21,071 bases of DNA, from the IMG/VR virus record IMGVR_UViG_3300050821_003885, positions 1 to 21,071 of that record. The stretch is one strand, 5' to 3'. Position numbers and translations under genes: made by a program. The notes under the pieces are model-generated. The model was not told the DNA's origin. It searched no databases and was given only the letters and a program-made list of their open reading frames with translations. Origin of the DNA: a virus. Below, piece by piece: positions 3,685 through 18,780 of this stretch; positions within the stretch are counted from its first letter, which is position 1; the number at the start of each line of letters is the position of its first letter.

Positions 3685-4899
3685 ATGATGGTTGCTGCAC
3701 TGTCGACGCTGACCGCAGCGTCGGGATGGACCGCGCCGGCGGCGAGTGGCGTGTTCACGCTTGTGAGTAACACCAGCTACGCGAAGACCCAGACAACGAC
3801 GGGGTATTCGTTTACGGGGTCGAGTTTGCTGGGCCAGTTCACCCCAGCGGGTGGCGGGTCGGCTAGTTTGTTGGCGGTTGCGTTGCGTCCTGTTGCGTCG
3901 TCGAATGCGAACGAGTTCGGGTTTGAGATTCAGAACGGGAAGATCTTCCTGTATGTGGTGAGCAACGGTGTGTGGAAGTTGGGTGTTGAGACTACATACA
4001 GCCCGACGGCGCACGCATGGGTTCGTCTTCGCGAATCTAACGGCGTCGGGTTCCTTGATGTCGCCCCCGACGGGTTGACGTGGACGAATTTGAGTAGCCT
4101 CTCGTACGGTGCGTTGAATGTGACTGATGTGACGACTGTGCTGTACGCGTACCAGGCGACAGGGGCGTCTGTCGCGACGATCGCATCGCTGAACACTCCG
4201 CCGACCCCGCCGCCCCCTGCAGGGCAGTCGGTAACGGAGTATTCTGACTTGACTCTGGTGTTCCTTGATCACACGTCGATCGCCCCTGCGGAGCATCTAC
4301 CAGAGTTCCAGACGGTGTCGACGCCAGTCGGACCTGGGTTCGCGTTCTCCATCTCAGACACCACAGATGTAACTCCCTGGGATTCGGGGATGAAGTGTGT
4401 ACTGGCGAAGATGGTGAACGACAAAGACCCTGTGGTGATGAATACGACGCAGACATGGAATTTCTACGTGTATCTACCCACCCAGGAGATCGTGACCAGC
4501 TGGAACGGTGGGGTTTTGTGGGAATTTCACACCCCGGGTAATTCAAGCGGTAACAACATTTGCCTCGACAACACCGGCCGGGGGCCGACTAATCCGTCGT
4601 TCCGTTTCGTGCACGAGGGGAGTGGTACGTTCACGTGGGTTCCGTTGACGTTCAACACGTATCATCACTTCACGATCACCGTTCGTTGGTCGACGGGAAG
4701 CGACGGGTTCTATCAAGCGTCAATGGATGGTGTTGAGTATCAGAACTTCACCGGTGCGACCGTGTTCGCATCAGATGCGTCTGGTAGCGACGACACCCCG
4801 TTTTTGCAGTTCGGTTTCTACGCAGACATCGGTGCGTCGAACGGTGTGGCTTCTGTCGGAACTAACCAAGTGACAATCTCAGGCATCACCGTCGCTTGA
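3685..4899 (+). CDS. Beta-rich lectin/lyase-like virion protein
   Basis: A 404-residue protein preceded by GAAGGAG (3675-3681). ATG at 3685 or 3688 could start it; 3688 has the better spacing. Two beta-rich domains are separated by a proline-rich linker (TPPTPPPPAG, residues about 171-180). The N-terminal domain has a concanavalin-A-like look. The C-terminal domain, with the pattern WNFYVYLP, GGVLWEFHTPG, FRFVHEG and a late FLQFGFYAD, resembles the jelly-roll fold of heparin-lyase-type polysaccharide lyases. There is no signal peptide. A virion surface or tail protein that binds or cuts envelope glycans is likely; catalytic residues cannot be assigned. Its place upstream of the terminase is unusual for a tail gene. 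Confidence 0.7.
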   Translation: MMVAALSTLTAASGWTAPAASGVFTLVSNTSYAKTQTTTGYSFTGSSLLGQFTPAGGGSASLLAVALRPVASSNANEFGFEIQNGKIFLYVVSNGVWKLGVETTYSPTAHAWVRLRESNGVGFLDVAPDGLTWTNLSSLSYGALNVTDVTTVLYAYQATGASVATIASLNTPPTPPPPAGQSVTEYSDLTLVFLDHTSIAPAEHLPEFQTVSTPVGPGFAFSISDTTDVTPWDSGMKCVLAKMVNDKDPVVMNTTQTWNFYVYLPTQEIVTSWNGGVLWEFHTPGNSSGNNICLDNTGRGPTNPSFRFVHEGSGTFTWVPLTFNTYHHFTITVRWSTGSDGFYQASMDGVEYQNFTGATVFASDASGSDDTPFLQFGFYADIGASNGVASVGTNQVTISGITVA

Positions 4900-4902
4900 C
4901 TG

Positions 4903-4998
4903 TCACTCTTCGCTTCTGCCGAATATCTTTTCAGCGATCCACCCGAGGATTATCGCGTACCAAGGGAAAAGTCTTGCGCACCAACGGTATTCGTTCAC
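4903..4998 (-). CDS. 31-residue membrane-active small protein
   Basis: A GTG-start frame on the minus strand, with a stop codon three codons upstream of the GTG, so the start is well bounded. GAAGGA lies about 10 bp upstream. The product (MNEYRWCARLFPWYAIILGW, then IAEKIFGRSEE) has one hydrophobic segment and a charged tail, as in small membrane proteins. It follows the 57-residue gene in the same direction and ends 3 bp from the convergent end of the gene at 3685. The function is unknown. Confidence is limited by the short length. Confidence 0.5.
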   Translation of the reverse strand: MNEYRWCARLFPWYAIILGWIAEKIFGRSEE

Positions 4999-5017
4999 GT
5001 GGCTTCATTCCTTCGTG

Positions 5018-5191
5018 TCAGGTTGGGAAGTTTCCGTTCGCGTCTTGAACTGTCACGTACAAGCCGGTGACGCTTTCCAGGGCTGCTTGCACAGCCCAAG
5101 CCGTGGCTAGAGGGTAAGGACCCCATTTGCTGAGGCTCTGAACACCGGCTGGCTTCGGTGAGTGTACGTACCATTCTTCTGCTGCCATCAT
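5018..5191 (-). CDS. 57-residue minus-strand protein of unknown function
   Basis: The frame reads MMAAEEWYVHSPKPAGVQS and continues with WGPYPLATAWAVQAALESV to a stop at 5018-5020. The composition is that of a compact soluble protein, and no rightward gene competes for this strip. Two ATG codons (5191 and 5188) could start it. There is no ribosome site; instead a TATAGT hexamer lies 3-6 bp upstream on this strand, which fits leaderless translation from 5188. It heads a two-gene leftward unit with the 31-residue gene and is divergent from the gene at 5216. The family is not recognised. Confidence 0.65.
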   Translation of the reverse strand: MMAAEEWYVHSPKPAGVQSLSKWGPYPLATAWAVQAALESVTGLYVTVQDANGNFPT

Positions 5192-8070: not shown

Positions 8071-9702
8071 TTGACGACGGCACTCATCGACGCTCCGCTT
8101 CTGCTCGGGTCTGAAGTACCGCGGATCTTCACCGCGCCGTTGCGTGAGCTGACCGATGACACTACTGACGGGTTCGCTGCGATAGCGTTCGCTGAAGAGA
8201 TCATGGGTTTGCGGCTCTTCCCGTGGGAGAAGTGGCTACTCATACATGGGCTTGAGCTGCTGCCTGACTGGACGTACCGCTTCCGTACGGTGATCGTGTC
8301 AGCGGCCCGTCAGAACGGGAAAACGCTGATCCTGGTTGTCTTAGCTCTGTGGCATATGTACGCCAAAGGATCCCGCACGGTTCTTGCTACAGCCCAGGAT
8401 TTGGGTAAAGCCGAAGACACGTGGGCTGCGGCCGTTGAGTGGGCTCAAGAGAACGAAGAGCTGAACGATCTCATCCGCAAAGTGGTTCTAGCCCATCCTA
8501 AGCGGCTTATGGTGATGAACCCGCAGATAGAGAAAATCTGCGAATACCGTGTCGCGACAGCCTCCAGACGGGGTCCTCGCGGGTTCACCGGGGATTTCAT
8601 TCTCTTGGACGAGCTGCGCGAACACCAAACGTGGGACACATGGGCTGCGATCACGAAAACGATCATGGCGCGGCCGAAAGCGCAATGCTGGTGCTTCTCA
8701 AACGCCGCTGATGCTCTCGGGGTTGTTCTGCGGTATCAGCGCGCTTCAGCGCACCGCAAGTTGAATTGGCCCGACAACGACGAGGCGATGCAAGCACCCA
8801 CACTGGGTGACACCGACCCTGCTGTCGAAGAGTTGCTGTCGAGCTACAAAAACATCGACGTCGGCTGGTTCGAATGGTCAGCCCCGCCGAAGGCGTCACG
8901 AACTGATCGTGAAGCATGGAAGTGGTCGAATCCCAGTATGAACTGGACGTCGATCGAACCGAACTGCATCACCGATCGTGCGATCGCCCACGCATTGGCT
9001 ACTGACCCTGTCGACGTGTTCGACACCGAAGTGTTGTGCCGTCAGATCAACACCGCGTCTGGCGGGCCGTTCCCCGAAGGTGCGTGGGAGGCGTGCAGAG
9101 ACGACATGGGCGGCCTGCTTGTCGCAGGCAAACGCTCAGCGATCTGCATTGAGATAAGCACCACACGAGCTGCTGCGATGATCGCTAAAGCGTCACTCGC
9201 TGATGATGATGTCGCTGTTGTCGGAATTGCTGATCAACAACCCGGCACGGACTGGATAATCCCTTGGCTTCACGCGAATCGTCGCAGCTACAACGGCATC
9301 GTGGTGCGCGTCGGCGCGGGTTCTCCCGTGGCGTGGCTCGCGCCGAAAATCGAAGAGGCCCGGCTTCCGCTGATCGAATGGAAACCGGGCGAGGTTTCAC
9401 CGGCGTTCAGCCAGCTCTACGACCGTGTCAGCGGCCTGCAACCGGCTGACGCGGACCATCCGCAGCCGTGGATCCGTCGGACATTGAAACACTTGACTCA
9501 CCCCGGTCTGGATGTGGCGGCGTCGACAGCGGCGGTGAAATATTTAACCGGAGGAGCGTGGATCATCGACGTGAACAGCAGCCCGCACGACGTCGCCCCG
9601 CTGTACTCATCCACAGGCGCGGTGTGGGGACTCGGACAGCTACCTGACGACGGCCCGTCAATGTACTCAGGTCCAGACGCGCCCGAGGTGTTCGTGATAT
9701 GA
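8071..9702 (+). CDS. Terminase large subunit
   Basis: A 543-residue protein, the ATPase and nuclease that packages DNA into the prohead. TTG at 8071 is used, with AAAGGGG 11 bp upstream; the nearby ATG and GTG run into stops. Residues 77-85 are SAARQNGKT (Walker A, here with the R-x-N-G-K-T form), and FILLDE (176-181) is Walker B. CFSNA (208-212) fits the coupling motif. The C-terminal nuclease half begins around AICIEIS (357-363), where the first acidic residue is Glu rather than the usual Asp. The length is normal for the family. It overlaps the next gene by ATGA. Confidence 0.93.
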   Translation: MTTALIDAPLLLGSEVPRIFTAPLRELTDDTTDGFAAIAFAEEIMGLRLFPWEKWLLIHGLELLPDWTYRFRTVIVSAARQNGKTLILVVLALWHMYAKGSRTVLATAQDLGKAEDTWAAAVEWAQENEELNDLIRKVVLAHPKRLMVMNPQIEKICEYRVATASRRGPRGFTGDFILLDELREHQTWDTWAAITKTIMARPKAQCWCFSNAADALGVVLRYQRASAHRKLNWPDNDEAMQAPTLGDTDPAVEELLSSYKNIDVGWFEWSAPPKASRTDREAWKWSNPSMNWTSIEPNCITDRAIAHALATDPVDVFDTEVLCRQINTASGGPFPEGAWEACRDDMGGLLVAGKRSAICIEISTTRAAAMIAKASLADDDVAVVGIADQQPGTDWIIPWLHANRRSYNGIVVRVGAGSPVAWLAPKIEEARLPLIEWKPGEVSPAFSQLYDRVSGLQPADADHPQPWIRRTLKHLTHPGLDVAASTAAVKYLTGGAWIIDVNSSPHDVAPLYSSTGAVWGLGQLPDDGPSMYSGPDAPEVFVI

Positions 9703-11687: not shown

Positions 11688-13163
11688 TTGATCACGAACA
11701 GCGGAGCCTACCATGCGCTGGCCCCGCAAGCTTTTGCGGAGACAAGCCCGCAGTTCTACGAATCATACCACGTTCCCCGTCTCGGGTATCCGCTTGAGAC
11801 GGCGTTCGCGTCTTACGGTCAGCTATACCGCTCGCAGTTGTGGGTACACGCCGCGGTGAACAAGGTCGCGAACTCCGTCGCCCGGTTGCCGATCAAGATC
11901 TGGGACTACGACGACACTGAGACGAAAACCCTCGACAAGACATCTCCGTACGCGAAGCTGATGCGACGCCCGTGTGTGACGATGCCGAACTATGCGTTCA
12001 AGCAGTGGATTGCTGCGACGATCGAAATCTACGGCGAAACGTATCTGCTGAAGTTGCGCGAGGGCAGGGGATCGCAGGTTACTTCGCTGCTGCCGATGCA
12101 CCCGAGTATGACGATGATTCACCGTGATGAGTACGGTGTTGAGCTGTATCGCTTCCTGGGGCGTCCGAATGAGATGTTCACCGAAGCGGATGTGATCCCG
12201 TTCCGTCTGTACAACCCCGACACGAGTATGCGGGGGTTGTCGCGTCTCGAAGCGTTGCGTTCAACGTTGATGGAAGAGGATTCTTCCCGCCGGGCGATGC
12301 AGGCGTGGTGGCAGAACCGCATGCGGCCCAGCATGATTCTGCGCGCGAAGCGCGAACTCGGAAAAGACGGCAGGGAGCGTCTTGAGCGCGCCTTGTCGTC
12401 ACGGCACGGCGGTTCGGGGAACACCGGCCGGGCGATCATCCTTGAGAACGATGAGTTCGAAGAGCCGAATCTGATTCAGTCCAGCGCTGAGGATATGCAG
12501 TATATTCAGGCGCGTCAGCTCGCACGTGAAGAGGTGTGCGCAGGCATGGATCTACCCCCGACGGCGTTGCAGGATATGACGCGCGCAACGTTCTCGAATG
12601 TGGTTGAAAATCAGCGTTCACTGTACCGCGACTCGATCACCCCGCGCGTGGAGTTCATCGAATCGGTGTTCGACTACTACGTCGGTAGTATCGAGTTCAA
12701 CGGCGATAAAGAAGCCAAATTCGACATGAAGCACGTCATGCGAGGCGACTGGGAGAAGCGCGCCGCAGCGCACGCGCAGATGGTGCAGACTGGCGTCGAA
12801 GAGCTTGCCGAGGCTCGCGAAGATATGGATCTACCCGACGCCGGGCCTCTATCACACCAGTTGTACGCGCAAATGCAGATGGTGCCACTAGACCCGAAGG
12901 CCAGGGCGGCTCTCATGCCCCCTCCCGTCGCGCCGCCTGTCGCGAAACCGATCGCCTCGTCTAACGCGCCTGCTGCGTCGTCGAACACGAACAACACCGA
13001 GAAACCCGCGTCGACTAATGTGCAGAAGTACATGCGCGACATCAGCGGCCTGATCGGGCGTAACCATAATCTTGCGGATGCGGCTGAGATTATGGTGCGT
13101 AAGACGGGGGATCGCGACGGTGTGAAAGAGGCGTTTGAGTTCCTGCTGGATCGTCAACTCTAG
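11688..13163 (+). CDS. Portal protein
   Basis: A 491-residue HK97-type portal; it forms the dodecameric channel at the head vertex through which terminase pumps DNA. TTG at 11688 follows an in-frame TAG directly, so it is the earliest possible start; a weak AGGG lies 12 bp upstream. Recognisable parts are SQLWVHAAVNKVANSVARLP near residue 45, VIPFRLYNPD, and the stem/crown region around REEVCAGMDLPPTALQD. The C-terminal 80 residues include a Pro/Ala/Asn-rich linker (PPPVAPPVAKP) and a final helical segment. Confidence 0.92.
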   Translation: MITNSGAYHALAPQAFAETSPQFYESYHVPRLGYPLETAFASYGQLYRSQLWVHAAVNKVANSVARLPIKIWDYDDTETKTLDKTSPYAKLMRRPCVTMPNYAFKQWIAATIEIYGETYLLKLREGRGSQVTSLLPMHPSMTMIHRDEYGVELYRFLGRPNEMFTEADVIPFRLYNPDTSMRGLSRLEALRSTLMEEDSSRRAMQAWWQNRMRPSMILRAKRELGKDGRERLERALSSRHGGSGNTGRAIILENDEFEEPNLIQSSAEDMQYIQARQLAREEVCAGMDLPPTALQDMTRATFSNVVENQRSLYRDSITPRVEFIESVFDYYVGSIEFNGDKEAKFDMKHVMRGDWEKRAAAHAQMVQTGVEELAEAREDMDLPDAGPLSHQLYAQMQMVPLDPKARAALMPPPVAPPVAKPIASSNAPAASSNTNNTEKPASTNVQKYMRDISGLIGRNHNLADAAEIMVRKTGDRDGVKEAFEFLLDRQL

Positions 13164-13764: not shown

Positions 13765-14064
13765 TTGAAGCGGCTGCTCGTCTTTTTGTGGTGCGCGTTC
13801 ACGGTTTTCTGCGCTGTCGCGCAAGCCGAAACTGATGATGATCAGTTGATGAATGAGCTTGCGCGACAAGGGATTACGTGGGACGGCCGCCGGGGTGAAG
13901 TATCTGCGGCGCATCTTGTGTGCGCTGAACTGGATCAAGGGCAGTCGCCCGCTGACATCGCGAACGCTTTGCTCTTCGAATCGAACATGTCCCAGTACCA
14001 GGCGGGGTTCTTCGTCGGTGTCTCGATCAGGCTTTACTGCCCGCAACACCTAGGTGAGGTATGA
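13765..14064 (+). CDS. Exported DUF732-family protein
   Basis: TTG at 13765 is chosen: GAAAGG (13751-13756) is 8 bp upstream, and it makes residues 1-21 a clean signal peptide (MKRLLVFLW..., ending AVAQA, cleavage before ETDDD). The mature part matches DUF732: DDQLMNELARQGITW, VCAELDQGQSPADIANAL, then a C-terminal YCPQHL, with two cysteines likely disulfide-bonded. DUF732 proteins are small secreted or envelope proteins of mycobacteria and relatives, of unknown function. The 99-residue length is typical. It overlaps the glycosyltransferase start by ATGA. A phage copy could act at the host envelope (inference). Confidence 0.8.
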   Translation: MKRLLVFLWCAFTVFCAVAQAETDDDQLMNELARQGITWDGRRGEVSAAHLVCAELDQGQSPADIANALLFESNMSQYQAGFFVGVSIRLYCPQHLGEV

Positions 14065-14903
14065 CTAAACCAGTGATCGTGTTCGTCTTCGCGGGCCGCG
14101 AACCGAACATGCGACTACAACTACCGCTCATCCGAAGAATCCTTGCATTGCACTCCAACGTTGAATATCACGTCTGGAACATGACGCATTGTGAATCAGA
14201 CGATGCGTTCGTCCGCTCGATCGAAGGCGACCGCATCACTGTCATCAATGATCTCGTCGACCGCGAGGATTTCGAGCAGTTCAGTCTCGCGTACAAGTTC
14301 TACGACACGATGAAGTACCGGAAGCATCTGTTCGTGAAGATCGACGACGACATCGTGTTCCTGCAAACCGACCGGTTCGGTGACTTTGTGGAGCAGATCG
14401 AGAAGCACCCCGACACGGTGCTGTGCGCGCACATCATGAACAACGGTGCGTGCGCGATGATCAACGGCGTCTGGGATGAGATGCACGCATTCCAGCAGGC
14501 GCGCAGAGACCCGTCGTGGGATATCGAACCCAGTGACGTGCACACGTCGAACAAGTTCGCTGTGATCAGTCACGAGTTCGCATTCAGGAACATCGAAGCG
14601 TTGCTCGCAGAACCGGTTGAGGTTGTTCCCGTGACGGATTGGTTGTCGATCAACGTCGTCGGATACAGCTACGACCTAGCTGGTGAGATGAACGCCCGAG
14701 GTTTAGGGAAGATCCGTCCGCGTATGCGGCAGTTCGACCCCGAAGCGCCGCTAGGCGACGAGGGCGTCATGAACCTGTTTCCCCGTGCTGTCGTAAAAGG
14801 TTGTCTTGCCGCGCATCTCAGCTTCGGATCGCAGCATGTCACCGATCAGCAGTACGACGAGTGGCGTGAATGCTACCAGGAGCTGGCAGTCCCCTACGTC
14901 TAA
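14061..14903 (+). CDS. Glycosyltransferase, GT-A type with DDD motif
   Basis: A 280-residue protein with AGGTGAGG directly upstream. It begins with a beta-strand (PVIVFVFAGREPNMRLQLPL). Residues 92-101 are VKIDDDIVFL, a D-x-D metal and nucleotide-sugar site as in GT-A glycosyltransferases. Later HIMNNGACAMINGVWDEM and AAHLSFGSQ could form the acceptor side. There is no membrane segment, so it acts in the cytoplasm. It lies immediately before the protease and capsid genes, favouring a virion protein as acceptor over a cell-wall target. The sugar is unknown. Confidence 0.75.
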   Translation: MTKPVIVFVFAGREPNMRLQLPLIRRILALHSNVEYHVWNMTHCESDDAFVRSIEGDRITVINDLVDREDFEQFSLAYKFYDTMKYRKHLFVKIDDDIVFLQTDRFGDFVEQIEKHPDTVLCAHIMNNGACAMINGVWDEMHAFQQARRDPSWDIEPSDVHTSNKFAVISHEFAFRNIEALLAEPVEVVPVTDWLSINVVGYSYDLAGEMNARGLGKIRPRMRQFDPEAPLGDEGVMNLFPRAVVKGCLAAHLSFGSQHVTDQQYDEWRECYQELAVPYV

Positions 14904-14926: not shown

Positions 14927-16537
14927 ATGTCTCCACAGCAACTCGCGGATCGCGCAGAGTCAAAGGCGATGACCGCTGAGATCGAGCCGGTTGAGTCTGA
15001 GAACCCGAATGGCGAGTTCCGTCTGGTGTTGAGCACCGACCGCAAAGACCGCGACGGCGACAATGTGTGGGCCGACCAGTGGCGTCTGCCGCTGCCCGAC
15101 AGGATTCACTTCGACACTGATCACGCGTGGGCGAGGGGGATGAGCGTCCCGCTCACCGCAGGCTCGGCTGTACCGTCGATCGACGCCGACGGAAAGATGG
15201 TTGTCTCCGGCGAGTACGCGGCTACTGATCACGCTCAGCTGACACGCAGTCTCGTCAACGGAAAGCATGTCCGCCACGCGTCGGTGTCGTATCTAGAGCA
15301 CGAGATGCCCGACGGCACGATCGAGCGGGAACTGCTGAACGGGACGTTCTGCGGTGTGCCCGCGAATCCTGACGCGGTGATCCTTGAGAGCAAAAGCTAC
15401 GCCCCTGAGATCGTCGAGAAGGCGGTCGAAGCGCAGGCTCAGTCGAAGAAATCCGGCGGAACAACCGAAGGCCAGTACCCGGCCGATGAAGGACCGTTCG
15501 CCGACCCTGAGAACCGCAAGTGGCCGCTCAACACACGTAAGCGCATCTTGAACGCTTGGGCGCGTATCCACCAGTCGGACGCAACGAAGAATTACAACGA
15601 AAGCGAGATCGCAACCATGACAGGACGTATTCGTAGCGCGGCTCGACGTGAAGGTATCGAGCTGAGCGACGACAACTCAAAGGAACTGGTTGCGTCTCTC
15701 GCCGCTGTGTGTAAAGCACTCGCGCACAACGGGAAGCTGCACACCAAGGACCTACCCGATTTCCTGCAAACCCAATCCACACCCGGAAACACCCCGATCG
15801 GTGAAGACGTCGGTGCGTCAAGCGTGTACGACGACGATGACGACGACTCTGATGACGACGGAAGCGACGCCGACGAACTCGGAGGGGACGATCTGATGAG
15901 CGACAGCGGAACGTTGGCGCAAGCCTTGCATGACGCCGCGTGCGCGCTCGGAGCCGCATGCATGGCGTCGCTGAAAGCTGGAAAGGCTGAGTCGAAGACG
16001 CCCGCGTTGACAGTCCCGCTCCGCGTCGTAACCGCAGGACCTCCGGGGCAAGAAATGTACAGCATCTACGCAGAAGGCCACGACGAGCCGATCGCGTACG
16101 GGTCTGTGAAAGATCTTCAACTCAACAACCTTGTTGTGTCGAAGACCGGCGCTCCCGTCGGCCCCTATCAGGGCGTCGAGGGAATGTCGGGTGAGAATGC
16201 TTCAGGTACAGAGCCCGGGCAGCCGTTGGCTGACGGGCAGCTGTTCCAAGAAGGTACTGCGGGGGCGGCGATCGCCCCGCAGTTTTTGTCAAAGTCCGCA
16301 ACCAACAACGACGACAGCAGTGATGAACAAGCACCATCAGCCGCCGAAGCTGAAACCGCCTCCGCCGCCGCCTCCAACAAGGACGCCGCCGCCGACGCCG
16401 TGAACGCATCGCCCGCAGATGTTGCAGCGAAATTCCCGAAAGCGGATGCCCGTCTGCGTTTGCTCAAGCTGCAAAACAAGAATCTGCAAACCCTAGGCGA
16501 ATCCATCGCAGAACAGGAGAACGATTCAGATGGATAA
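14927..16537 (+). CDS. Prohead protease (S78-like) with C-terminal extension
   Basis: 536 residues from ATG 14927 (ribosome site AAAAGGA at 14914-14920); an in-frame upstream start would lack one. Residues about 25-150 are the HK97 prohead-protease domain: DRKDRDGDNVWADQW, HFDTDHAW with the likely catalytic His, and VRHASVSYLEHE with the likely Ser. Then come a DUF6582-like helical module (about 190-245, RKWPLNTRKRILNAWARI), an acidic run (about 302-322), a block shared with the capsid protein (407-454), and an Ala-rich tail. At more than twice the usual length, the extension may act as a scaffold. It overlaps the capsid gene by 8 bases. Confidence 0.85.
   Translation: MSPQQLADRAESKAMTAEIEPVESENPNGEFRLVLSTDRKDRDGDNVWADQWRLPLPDRIHFDTDHAWARGMSVPLTAGSAVPSIDADGKMVVSGEYAATDHAQLTRSLVNGKHVRHASVSYLEHEMPDGTIERELLNGTFCGVPANPDAVILESKSYAPEIVEKAVEAQAQSKKSGGTTEGQYPADEGPFADPENRKWPLNTRKRILNAWARIHQSDATKNYNESEIATMTGRIRSAARREGIELSDDNSKELVASLAAVCKALAHNGKLHTKDLPDFLQTQSTPGNTPIGEDVGASSVYDDDDDDSDDDGSDADELGGDDLMSDSGTLAQALHDAACALGAACMASLKAGKAESKTPALTVPLRVVTAGPPGQEMYSIYAEGHDEPIAYGSVKDLQLNNLVVSKTGAPVGPYQGVEGMSGENASGTEPGQPLADGQLFQEGTAGAAIAPQFLSKSATNNDDSSDEQAPSAAEAETASAAASNKDAAADAVNASPADVAAKFPKADARLRLLKLQNKNLQTLGESIAEQENDSDG
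16145..16288 (+). repeat. 48-residue block shared with the capsid gene (copy 1)
   Basis: Encodes protease residues 407-454. It aligns without gaps to capsid protein residues 133-180 (16926-17069), 31 of 48 identical. The core PYQGV-x-GMSGENASGT is almost invariant. At DNA level 16160-16209 and 16941-16990 match at 44 of 50 bases, suggesting recent duplication or gene conversion. Confidence 0.9.
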
Positions 16538-18062
16538 GGCCACAGTCGACCGGCGTGCCGGCGAACTGAACGAGCAGGCCCAGGTGGCTTACAAGTCCCT
16601 CGTGGATGGTGAGATCACCGAAGCCGAGTTCAACACGAAGATGAAGGCTGTCGAGGATGAGAGTGAGCGCAATCAGGTGCTCTTCAAGTCCCGTCAGCGT
16701 GCCAACCAGTTCCAGGTGATCGGTAACGAAGACGAAGGCGCCCCGCCTCAGTCCGAAGAGCCGGTTCACGAGGACATCCTTGCGTACCGTCGCGCGTTCG
16801 GCGAGATCACCAAGGCGGCGCGTGAGCGTCACCGCGGTGGTGGCGCGTTCCGTTTCGGCTACAAGAGCTGGCTGGACAACGACTACGCGATGGCTGGTTT
16901 CATGAACCAGGCGCAGTCGAAGTCGACTGGTATGCCCACCGGCCCCTATCAGGGTGTCGCGGGGATGTCCGGTGAGAACGCCTCAGGTACCACAGCGGGC
17001 AGCGCCCTTTCGAACGGGACGTACTTCCTGACTGGTACCGCCGGCCCCGCGATCGAGCCCGAGTTCATTCCGGGGATTGTCGAGATGCGGTTCTTCCCGA
17101 CAGTCATCGAGTCGCTGTTCCCAGCGTTGCCGGTTTCGTCTCCGATCATCACGTATGTGACAGAGACCGGCTGGACCAACGCTGCTGCAGCCACTGGTGA
17201 AGCCGCAACCAAGCCGACGTCAACCCACACCCTGCAGCGCTACACCGAGCAGGTCGGGAAGATCGCGAACTTGGAGCGCACCACAGACGAAATGATCCAG
17301 GACGCCGCATACGTGTGGGCCCTGTTCCAGCGTCGTCTCGTGATGGGCGTTCAGCGTCGCACCGAGGTTGAGTTGCTCGCCGGCACCGGATACCCCGGGG
17401 TCAACGGTCTGCTCGGCCGGTCTGCATCCTTCACGCAGGGTGCGACTGTCAGTGCGCTGAGCAACGTCGCTATCCCGCCGACGATCGCAGGACCGTTCGG
17501 TACGGGTATGGGTTCGGCTGAAACCGTTACGTCGGTGACACCGGGCCGCTCCATCACCAACGCCCTCGGGTCGACGGCTGGTGGACCCGCAGGGAACGAC
17601 ATCGCGCTCGGTATTCTGCAGATGATCACCGATCTTCGCACGACGGTGTTCTTCGAGCCCGACGCGATCGTCATGAACCCCCAGGATTACTACACGCTGC
17701 GTACCGCCGTTGATAAGAACGGTCAGTACTTCGGCGGTAGCTTCTGGGGTCGTGACTACGGCTACCCGAATGACCAGGGCCAGCTATCCGCAGGTGGTGT
17801 TGACACCTTCACCCTTTGGGGTAAGAAGCTTGTCACCACTCCTGTGATCCCGCCGGGCCTGATCCTCGTCGGCGACTTCGCTGACGCGGGTGCTGTCCTT
17901 CGCCTCGGAGGCCTTCGGGTCGACGTGACGAACCTCAACGGGACCGATTTCGAGCAGAACATGTGGACGGCTCGCGCTGAGGCGCGCGTCGGACTCCTGA
18001 TCGAGCGTCCGTACCTGTTTGAGCTGGGTGTTCTCGAAACCGGGACTACCTGGAGCAGCTAA
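16530..18062 (+). CDS. Major capsid protein, HK97 fold
   Basis: A 510-residue protein with AGGAGA 9 bp upstream of ATG 16530. Residues 1-131 are helical and charged, as in a cleavable delta (scaffold) domain. K131-S132 matches the Lys-Ser dipeptide I recall as the HK97 cleavage point; the mature chain would be 379 residues. The rest shows the HK97 pattern: IEPEFIPGIVEMRFFPTVIE (E-loop and P-domain entry), LERTTDEMIQDA, VNGLLG, a TTVFFEPDAIVMNPQDYYTL spine region and a final RAEARVGLLIERPYLFELGV strand. Residues 133-180 repeat a block of the protease. Followed by a strong hairpin. Confidence 0.92.
   Translation: MDKATVDRRAGELNEQAQVAYKSLVDGEITEAEFNTKMKAVEDESERNQVLFKSRQRANQFQVIGNEDEGAPPQSEEPVHEDILAYRRAFGEITKAARERHRGGGAFRFGYKSWLDNDYAMAGFMNQAQSKSTGMPTGPYQGVAGMSGENASGTTAGSALSNGTYFLTGTAGPAIEPEFIPGIVEMRFFPTVIESLFPALPVSSPIITYVTETGWTNAAAATGEAATKPTSTHTLQRYTEQVGKIANLERTTDEMIQDAAYVWALFQRRLVMGVQRRTEVELLAGTGYPGVNGLLGRSASFTQGATVSALSNVAIPPTIAGPFGTGMGSAETVTSVTPGRSITNALGSTAGGPAGNDIALGILQMITDLRTTVFFEPDAIVMNPQDYYTLRTAVDKNGQYFGGSFWGRDYGYPNDQGQLSAGGVDTFTLWGKKLVTTPVIPPGLILVGDFADAGAVLRLGGLRVDVTNLNGTDFEQNMWTARAEARVGLLIERPYLFELGVLETGTTWSS
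16926..17069 (+). repeat. 48-residue block shared with the protease gene (copy 2)
   Basis: Encodes capsid residues 133-180, at the presumed N-arm of the mature subunit. The partner copy is at 16145-16288. In both proteins the block directly follows, or lies one residue after, an S-K dipeptide. Confidence 0.9.
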
Positions 18063-18068
18063 GCAGTA

Positions 18069-18110
18069 GCGCGTGCGCGGCGACCATATAGCGGGCCGCC
18101 GCGCACGCGC
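18069..18110 (+). terminator. Strong GC hairpin after the capsid gene
   Basis: GCGCGTGCGCGGCG (18069-18082) pairs perfectly with CGCCGCGCACGCGC (18097-18110) around a 14-nt loop. It lies 7 bp after the capsid stop. No U-tract follows, so it is either an I-shaped actinobacterial terminator or a hairpin protecting the capsid mRNA from 3' decay. Confidence 0.75.
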
Positions 18111-18123
18111 CTGTTAGCTAATT

Positions 18124-18780
18124 ATGGCGTTCTCTCCGCTGATCGGACCTCACGTTCGCGCTGAGCGGTTGAACATCTACGTCCCCTACACGCAAGTCCT
18201 ACCCGGTACGATGTCGGGGCTGCTCTACTACTTACGCGACACGGTGTTCGTTGACTGCCGTGACGATGTGTGGGCGTACGCGAAGTACATGCGCCGAGCA
18301 TGGACGGATGGTGCGAGGCTCATCAACGTTGAGCACGACGTTTTCTGGGCGCCGGGGATGCTCGACGAAATGTGGCGATGCGAACACGACTGGTGCGTGT
18401 GCCCGTACTCAGGCCCCCCGGATCCTCTCGGCGCTCCACCGTTCGGGTTGGTGAAGTTCAGTGAACTTCTCATCAGACAGACCGAGAACGTTTGGGTTGA
18501 CTGGATGGGTGAGCACGGCGAGCAGTGGCGCTCTTACCGGCCCGGGTGGACGACGACAGCATACATAAAACCGTACTACGGGCTCGACTGCTATCTACAC
18601 GACTGGATACGCGAGCAAGGTGTCGAGCAGCGTCATCACTCCCATTTCCCGCATTCGATCAACACCAGCATCGAAGGACATAAACCTTCAGAAGTCTACC
18701 ACCCCGTTCGCGTGCTGCGCGACGGCGCGATCGTAGACGGCCCTAAAACATTCGACATCACCGCCGTCAACACCCTGTGA
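18124..18780 (+). CDS. Glycosyltransferase-like protein
   Basis: A 218-residue protein from ATG 18124 with no obvious ribosome site. RLINVEHDVFWAPGMLDEMW (66-84) fits the E-x-D variant of the metal site seen in phage and bacterial GT-A enzymes, where a hydrophobic strand precedes an acidic pair and a proline turn. It is followed by CEHDWCVCPYSG, GLVKFS and a His-rich HHSHFPHS near residue 180. No membrane segment. It lies directly after the capsid gene and its hairpin, so capsid or decoration protein may be the acceptor. It is less certain than the glycosyltransferase at 14061. Confidence 0.6.
   Translation: MAFSPLIGPHVRAERLNIYVPYTQVLPGTMSGLLYYLRDTVFVDCRDDVWAYAKYMRRAWTDGARLINVEHDVFWAPGMLDEMWRCEHDWCVCPYSGPPDPLGAPPFGLVKFSELLIRQTENVWVDWMGEHGEQWRSYRPGWTTTAYIKPYYGLDCYLHDWIREQGVEQRHHSHFPHSINTSIEGHKPSEVYHPVRVLRDGAIVDGPKTFDITAVNTL

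Follow-up and report, generated by a model that had tools for sequence, protein, structure and literature searches.

In herpesviruses (UL26/UL26.5) and in lambda (C/Nu3), the maturation protease shares a segment with another head-assembly protein, and the sharing stems from genes nested with the scaffold. To our knowledge, no copy of the capsid arm has been described in the proteases of HK97 and D3. These two systems (gp5 capsid, gp4 protease) show the gene order portal-protease-capsid and an HK97-family capsid protein with an N-terminal delta-like domain. In the procapsid shell of HK97, the capsid protein is cleaved within a flexible region at K103/S104, a Lys-Ser dipeptide ahead of the N-arm (PMC10275583). 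In phage SPN3US, the protease gp245 removes its own C-terminal propeptide at the motif that is also used for other head proteins, and this propeptide probably targets the protease into the prohead (PMC7411985). How the few protease molecules of an HK97-type phage enter the procapsid, find their sites on the capsid subunits and are removed is incompletely understood.

The locus described here lies in an IMG/VR virus record of 21,071 bases, taken whole and hereafter called the window, which carries phage head genes (Table 1). Its gene order, its HK97-family capsid protein with an N-terminal delta-like domain and the Lys-Ser at the putative cleavage point ahead of the N-arm are as in HK97; in contrast, the putative mature arm is about twice as long as that of HK97. 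The protease resembles SPN3US gp245 in being a prohead protease with a C-terminal extension; SPN3US, however, is a giant phage of the T4-like head lineage, and homology between propeptide and capsid arm is not reported in the passages of that study that were consulted (PMC7411985). A likeness in self-processing is suggested by motifs only, namely Ser-Lys-Ser/Thr (SK[ST]) at residues 156, 357, 406 and 456. Unlike UL26/UL26.5 and C/Nu3, the window has a separate duplicate of the substrate's own arm: the arm copy in the protease and the arm in the capsid protein belong to separate ORFs and lie 781 bases apart, which is not the layout of a segment shared by nested or overlapping genes. The nearest annotated phages are the mycobacteriophages of cluster E (Kostyavirus, e.g. 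Elph10), in which the counterparts are annotated as major capsid protein (43% identical) and capsid maturation protease (40% identical in the core), and the protease tail lacks the arm copy. The window system is thus a variant of the HK97-type protease-capsid module, and a moderately surprising one. A natural protease that carries the cleavage site and arm of its own substrate would give direct access to the questions of recognition and targeting. It is also a clear case in which part of a structural gene has moved into the enzyme that processes that structural protein.

Table 1. Head genes of the window and the segments shared by protease and capsid protein
Feature	Position	Strand	Evidence	Place in gene order
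Terminase	8071-9702			First of the head genes
Portal	11688-13163			Between terminase and glycosyltransferase
Glycosyltransferase	14061-14903		PHROG 4447, E 1e-82	After portal, before protease
Head maturation protease, 536 aa	14927-16537	+	PHROG 2753, E 7e-27; DUF6582, E 6e-16	
Protease arm copy S405-L454, S405-K406 included	16139-16288	+	31/48 aa match to capsid arm	
Second Ser-Lys-Ser/Thr site, S455-K456-S457	16289-16297	+	Sequence	Directly behind arm copy
Major capsid protein, 510 aa	16530-18062	+	PF05065, E 1.4e-20; PHROG 10; TIGR01554	
Capsid N-arm source segment S130-I180 with putative cleavage site K131-S132	16917-17069	+	Conserved lysine in relatives	

In an ungapped alignment, protease residues T407-L454 (nt 16145-16288) are identical to capsid residues T133-I180 (nt 16926-17069) at 31 of 48 positions, and the core DNA (16160-16209 against 16941-16990) is identical at 44 of 50 bases, exactly as the preliminary description of this DNA had counted. 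When the two proteins are aligned locally, the score is 165, against 57 for the best shuffle, which confirms that the shared block is real and far above chance. Over the whole block the two copies differ at 52 of 144 bases, in a coding pattern. The block had been placed behind K131 in the capsid protein and behind S405-K406 in the protease, and this placement holds with one refinement. TCG-AAG (Ser-Lys) precedes both copies, and the capsid copy has one additional Ser codon (SK-STG against SK-TG). When a gap of one codon is allowed, the S-K is homologous in both, so the repeat includes the putative scissile lysine and not just the residues after it. The Ser-Lys-Ser behind the arm copy is not of capsid origin, as judged by sequence comparison.

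The shared block was previously taken for the capsid N-arm, and this identity is borne out across all capsid proteins of relatives that were fetched, in which it leads into the P-E-F-x-P-G start of the capsid domain. By fold the protein is a member of the HK97 family, and its N-terminal domain is helical and delta-like; the PF05065 match covers residues 174-497, and profile comparison with HK97 gp5 chains gives E values of about 1e-32. Its predicted structure is poor (mean pLDDT 56) and was not used for placing the arm. The last lysine before the arm (K131 here) is conserved in every capsid protein compared, with S, T, A or D as the next residue, and mostly lies 36-46 residues upstream of the P-E-F-x-P-G motif (59 in L003 and L004). 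A competing lysine, K112, is nearly invariant by alignment column, being Arg in L024 and missing in L029; the equivalent of K131 is present in both. K131 forms the only SK[ST] motif of the capsid protein. The earlier comparison of K131-S132 with the Lys-Ser dipeptide of HK97 agrees with the cleavage at K103/S104 (PMC10275583) and with the conservation of the lysine in relatives. K131-S132 is therefore a good candidate for the maturation cleavage site, judged from sequence.

The protease consists of a core (about residues 1-156), a DUF6582 domain (181-249), an acidic linker, a small beta module (361-392), the arm copy and C-terminal helices (487-533). It did not match PF04586 in a Pfam profile search. 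Nevertheless, it can be assigned to the HK97/T4-type prohead serine proteases by its PHROG 2753 profile match, by its fold and by its conserved His and Ser residues: the predicted model matches the T4 gp21 protease (5jbl) with a Foldseek probability of 0.97-0.99 at an E value of only about 0.01, and H66, H114 and S119 are invariant among 33 protease homologues. Residues 400-486, around the arm copy, are predicted to be disordered (pLDDT 31-35), and they are flanked by the beta module, which is common to the closest relative, and by the C-terminal helices. The tail contains four SK[ST] motifs (K156, K357, K406 and K456) at or near module edges, against 0.27 expected in shuffled sequences, and the arm copy sits between two of them. 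At the end of the core, K156 is an invariant lysine (S/A-K-S/A/T) in the 33 homologues, which makes it a possible general site of self-cleavage. The tails of relatives likewise hold 94 SK-S/T motifs against 44 expected, an excess largely accounted for by a single conserved site where the core ends. Modules come and go among these tails, and their lengths differ widely. In 14 relatives (L010, L020-L026, L031, L032, L035, L038, L045 and L046) the tail is a mosaic of short modules between the conserved core and a conserved C-terminal helix, including DUF6582-like modules, a helical ILAGIDAILDQAQAL...LPPEV module, a Cys-rich CQCWDGYERVPGTTPCAPGSCRKCD module and a further module, VGKALAGSVEDL.

Relatives were collected from IMG/VR and GTDB genomes by capsid and by protease. 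The shared block was found in one of 98 distinct protease-capsid pairs, that of the window; a comparison of about 40 related pairs found the arm copy lacking in all of them. A repeat widespread among such proteases and capsid proteins was considered and rejected, since none of the 97 other pairs has it and a six-frame search with an arm profile adds a single case. This case is L001, the closest relative (capsid 72%, protease 45% identity), in which a second arm copy lies at 4983-5141. It comprises 53 codons in the -1 frame (open over positions 4743-5141), and its sole start codon, a CTG, overlaps the stop codon of the protease gene; the copy is thus downstream of the protease C-terminus, in another frame, and not within the protease. 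Among the 21 records that were searched whole, only those of the window and L001 have two arm copies, and the 19 others lack the second. Possible readings of the L001 copy are a C-terminal extension of the protease that is translated after a frameshift, a small gene of its own, and a fusion that an indel or an assembly error has disrupted. A standard slippery heptamer was not found at the end of the L001 protease gene; an AAAA run lies shortly upstream of the stop codon, and a moderately stable RNA fold (z -2.5) downstream. Because the arm copy is missing in all more distant relatives, it is a clade-specific addition and no general feature of such phages. The search through related pairs that had been proposed for the block showed absence in the distant pairs and a second copy beside the protease of L001. 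The preliminary description knew of no HK97-type system with this arrangement; searches of open-licence papers likewise found no description of a block shared by capsid protein and protease. In two other relatives an HNH-endonuclease-like ORF (L004:4350-4961, L005:2875-3486) overlaps the 3' end of the capsid gene, and its last residues, LAGGS, repeat the capsid C-terminus; no ORF is listed there in the very similar L003.

At third codon positions the protease copy differs from the capsid gene of its own genome at 27 of 48 sites and from that of L001 at 26 of 48, and the two capsid genes differ from each other at 26 of 48. The copy has thus diverged as far as the two phages' capsid genes have from each other, which dates it to about the time when the window and L001 separated and rules out a recent local duplication; given the third-position differences, the 86% identity of the core is no sign of youth. 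Trees of the four sequences do not favour one history, as the three topologies lie within less than 2 lnL units, so that one ancient duplication fits about as well as two captures. Neutral drift of both extra copies is rejected under all three trees (2*delta lnL of 8.4, 23 and 37) in tests that use 42-48 codons with nearly saturated silent sites; under the weakest tree (8.4), none of 60 parametric null replicates reaches the observed value. In a simpler simulation with an equal number of random changes, one of 3000 neutral copies was as arm-like as the real one. Both copies look, from these comparisons, as if they were kept by selection, with the caveat that part of the constraint could date from life in a capsid protein if the source was an unsampled third capsid lineage. 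A copy that is absent or unconstrained in relatives, which had been named as a sign of a chance duplication, is hence not what was found. The interpretation given in the preliminary description is borne out in part, and the L001 copy strengthens it.

The constraint is uneven along the copy: omega is about 0.26 in its first half, with the better-kept core GPYQGVxGMSGENASGT, whereas it is about 0.6 in the second half. Among the 15 substitutions that separate the copy from the window's capsid arm (40 aligned columns), eight, mostly to acidic residues or Gln, are unseen in any capsid arm, and E, Q or D replace conserved arm residues, the Y and L of the YFL motif among them. The copy scores just under the lowest capsid arm tested. 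By this measure the copy in its present form is not interchangeable with a capsid arm. In the core, the protease copy and the window's capsid gene share a run of nine sites (p 0.014), a hint of partial gene conversion, but the runs test gives no significant result.

The explanation that we tentatively favour, at somewhat less than an even chance, is that the captured capsid arm and its cleavage signal were kept for a role in a self-processed protease tail, either as a pseudo-substrate or in targeting. The sequence comparisons show the capture and its retention: a stretch of about 50 codons, from the S-K at the probable cleavage site through the N-arm, was copied into the adjacent protease gene, where it encodes part of the flexible C-terminal tail, and selection has kept it as a translated segment. 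The function is inferred. The tail would act as a removable targeting propeptide that enters the procapsid along with the protease, and the arm copy would serve as a pseudo-substrate or an arm-like contact. The protease would then cut its own tail at K406/T407, perhaps also at K456/S457, as it would cut the capsid protein at K131/S132, and the tail fragment would be freed prior to packaging. Consistent with this are the inclusion of the S-K in the repeat and the conserved lysine ahead of the arm in the capsid proteins of relatives, the rejection of neutrality, the excess of SK[ST] motifs in a disordered tail, and the further arm copy where the protease and capsid genes of L001 meet, one of just two such records among 21; the self-removed C-terminal propeptide of SPN3US provides a precedent (PMC7411985). 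However, the copy is diverged, with a weakly constrained second half and replaced conserved residues, about 40 related pairs do without it, the L001 copy lies outside the protease with only a CTG start, and an unsampled capsid lineage as the source could account for part of the conservation. The wider scheme, in which the clade would have captured its own capsid arm and cleavage signal, possibly twice independently (once inside and once behind the protease), to form a substrate-mimicking, self-cleaved targeting tail, seems rather unlikely when taken as a whole.

In the main rival, a serious possibility that still falls short of being probable, the segment is a tolerated by-product: illegitimate recombination would have put a fragment of the neighbouring gene, or of a related phage's capsid gene, into a permissive, disordered and fast-changing tail, where it would do nothing specific other than keep the reading frame open. 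The tails of relatives do swap modules and differ greatly in length, hardly any constraint acts on the second half of the copy, the eight foreign substitutions go towards the acidic and Gln-rich composition of the tail, and the balance of silent and replacement changes could also arise if the segment first evolved for a while in a capsid lineage and then drifted neutrally. A tolerated fragment is at odds with the rejection of neutrality for both copies under every tree and with the fact that L001, the only close relative, also carries a second copy near the same genes. The mimicry first suggested for this locus, in which an uncleaved arm copy would occupy the site of the mature N-arm and anchor the protease to the shell or compete during maturation, would suit a copied part that is the arm sequence itself and whose core is better kept. 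It appears improbable, since the arm region of the HK97 and D3 procapsids is flexible and acquires order only once maturation is over, D3 Prohead 2 preparations by then show no protease band, and the copy lacks residues conserved in all capsid arms examined. An assembly chimera or sequencing artefact might be suspected because both loci derive from metagenomes and, in L001, the copy and the protease are in different frames; with 52 of 144 base differences in a coding pattern, an intact frame through the block in the window and a second, different contig bearing its own diverged copy, this reading is close to refuted and hardly credible.

Some features of the surrounding genes may be added. The glycosyltransferase encoded upstream of the protease (14061-14903) has about 39% identity to glycosyltransferases of many mycobacteriophages. 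Adjoining the capsid gene downstream, a gene at 18124-18780 encodes a protein of 218 aa with no Pfam, PHROG or NCBIfam match. Just 3' of the capsid stop codon, at 18069-18110, lies a near-perfect, GC-rich inverted repeat with 17-nt arms and an 8-nt loop, which resembles a terminator.
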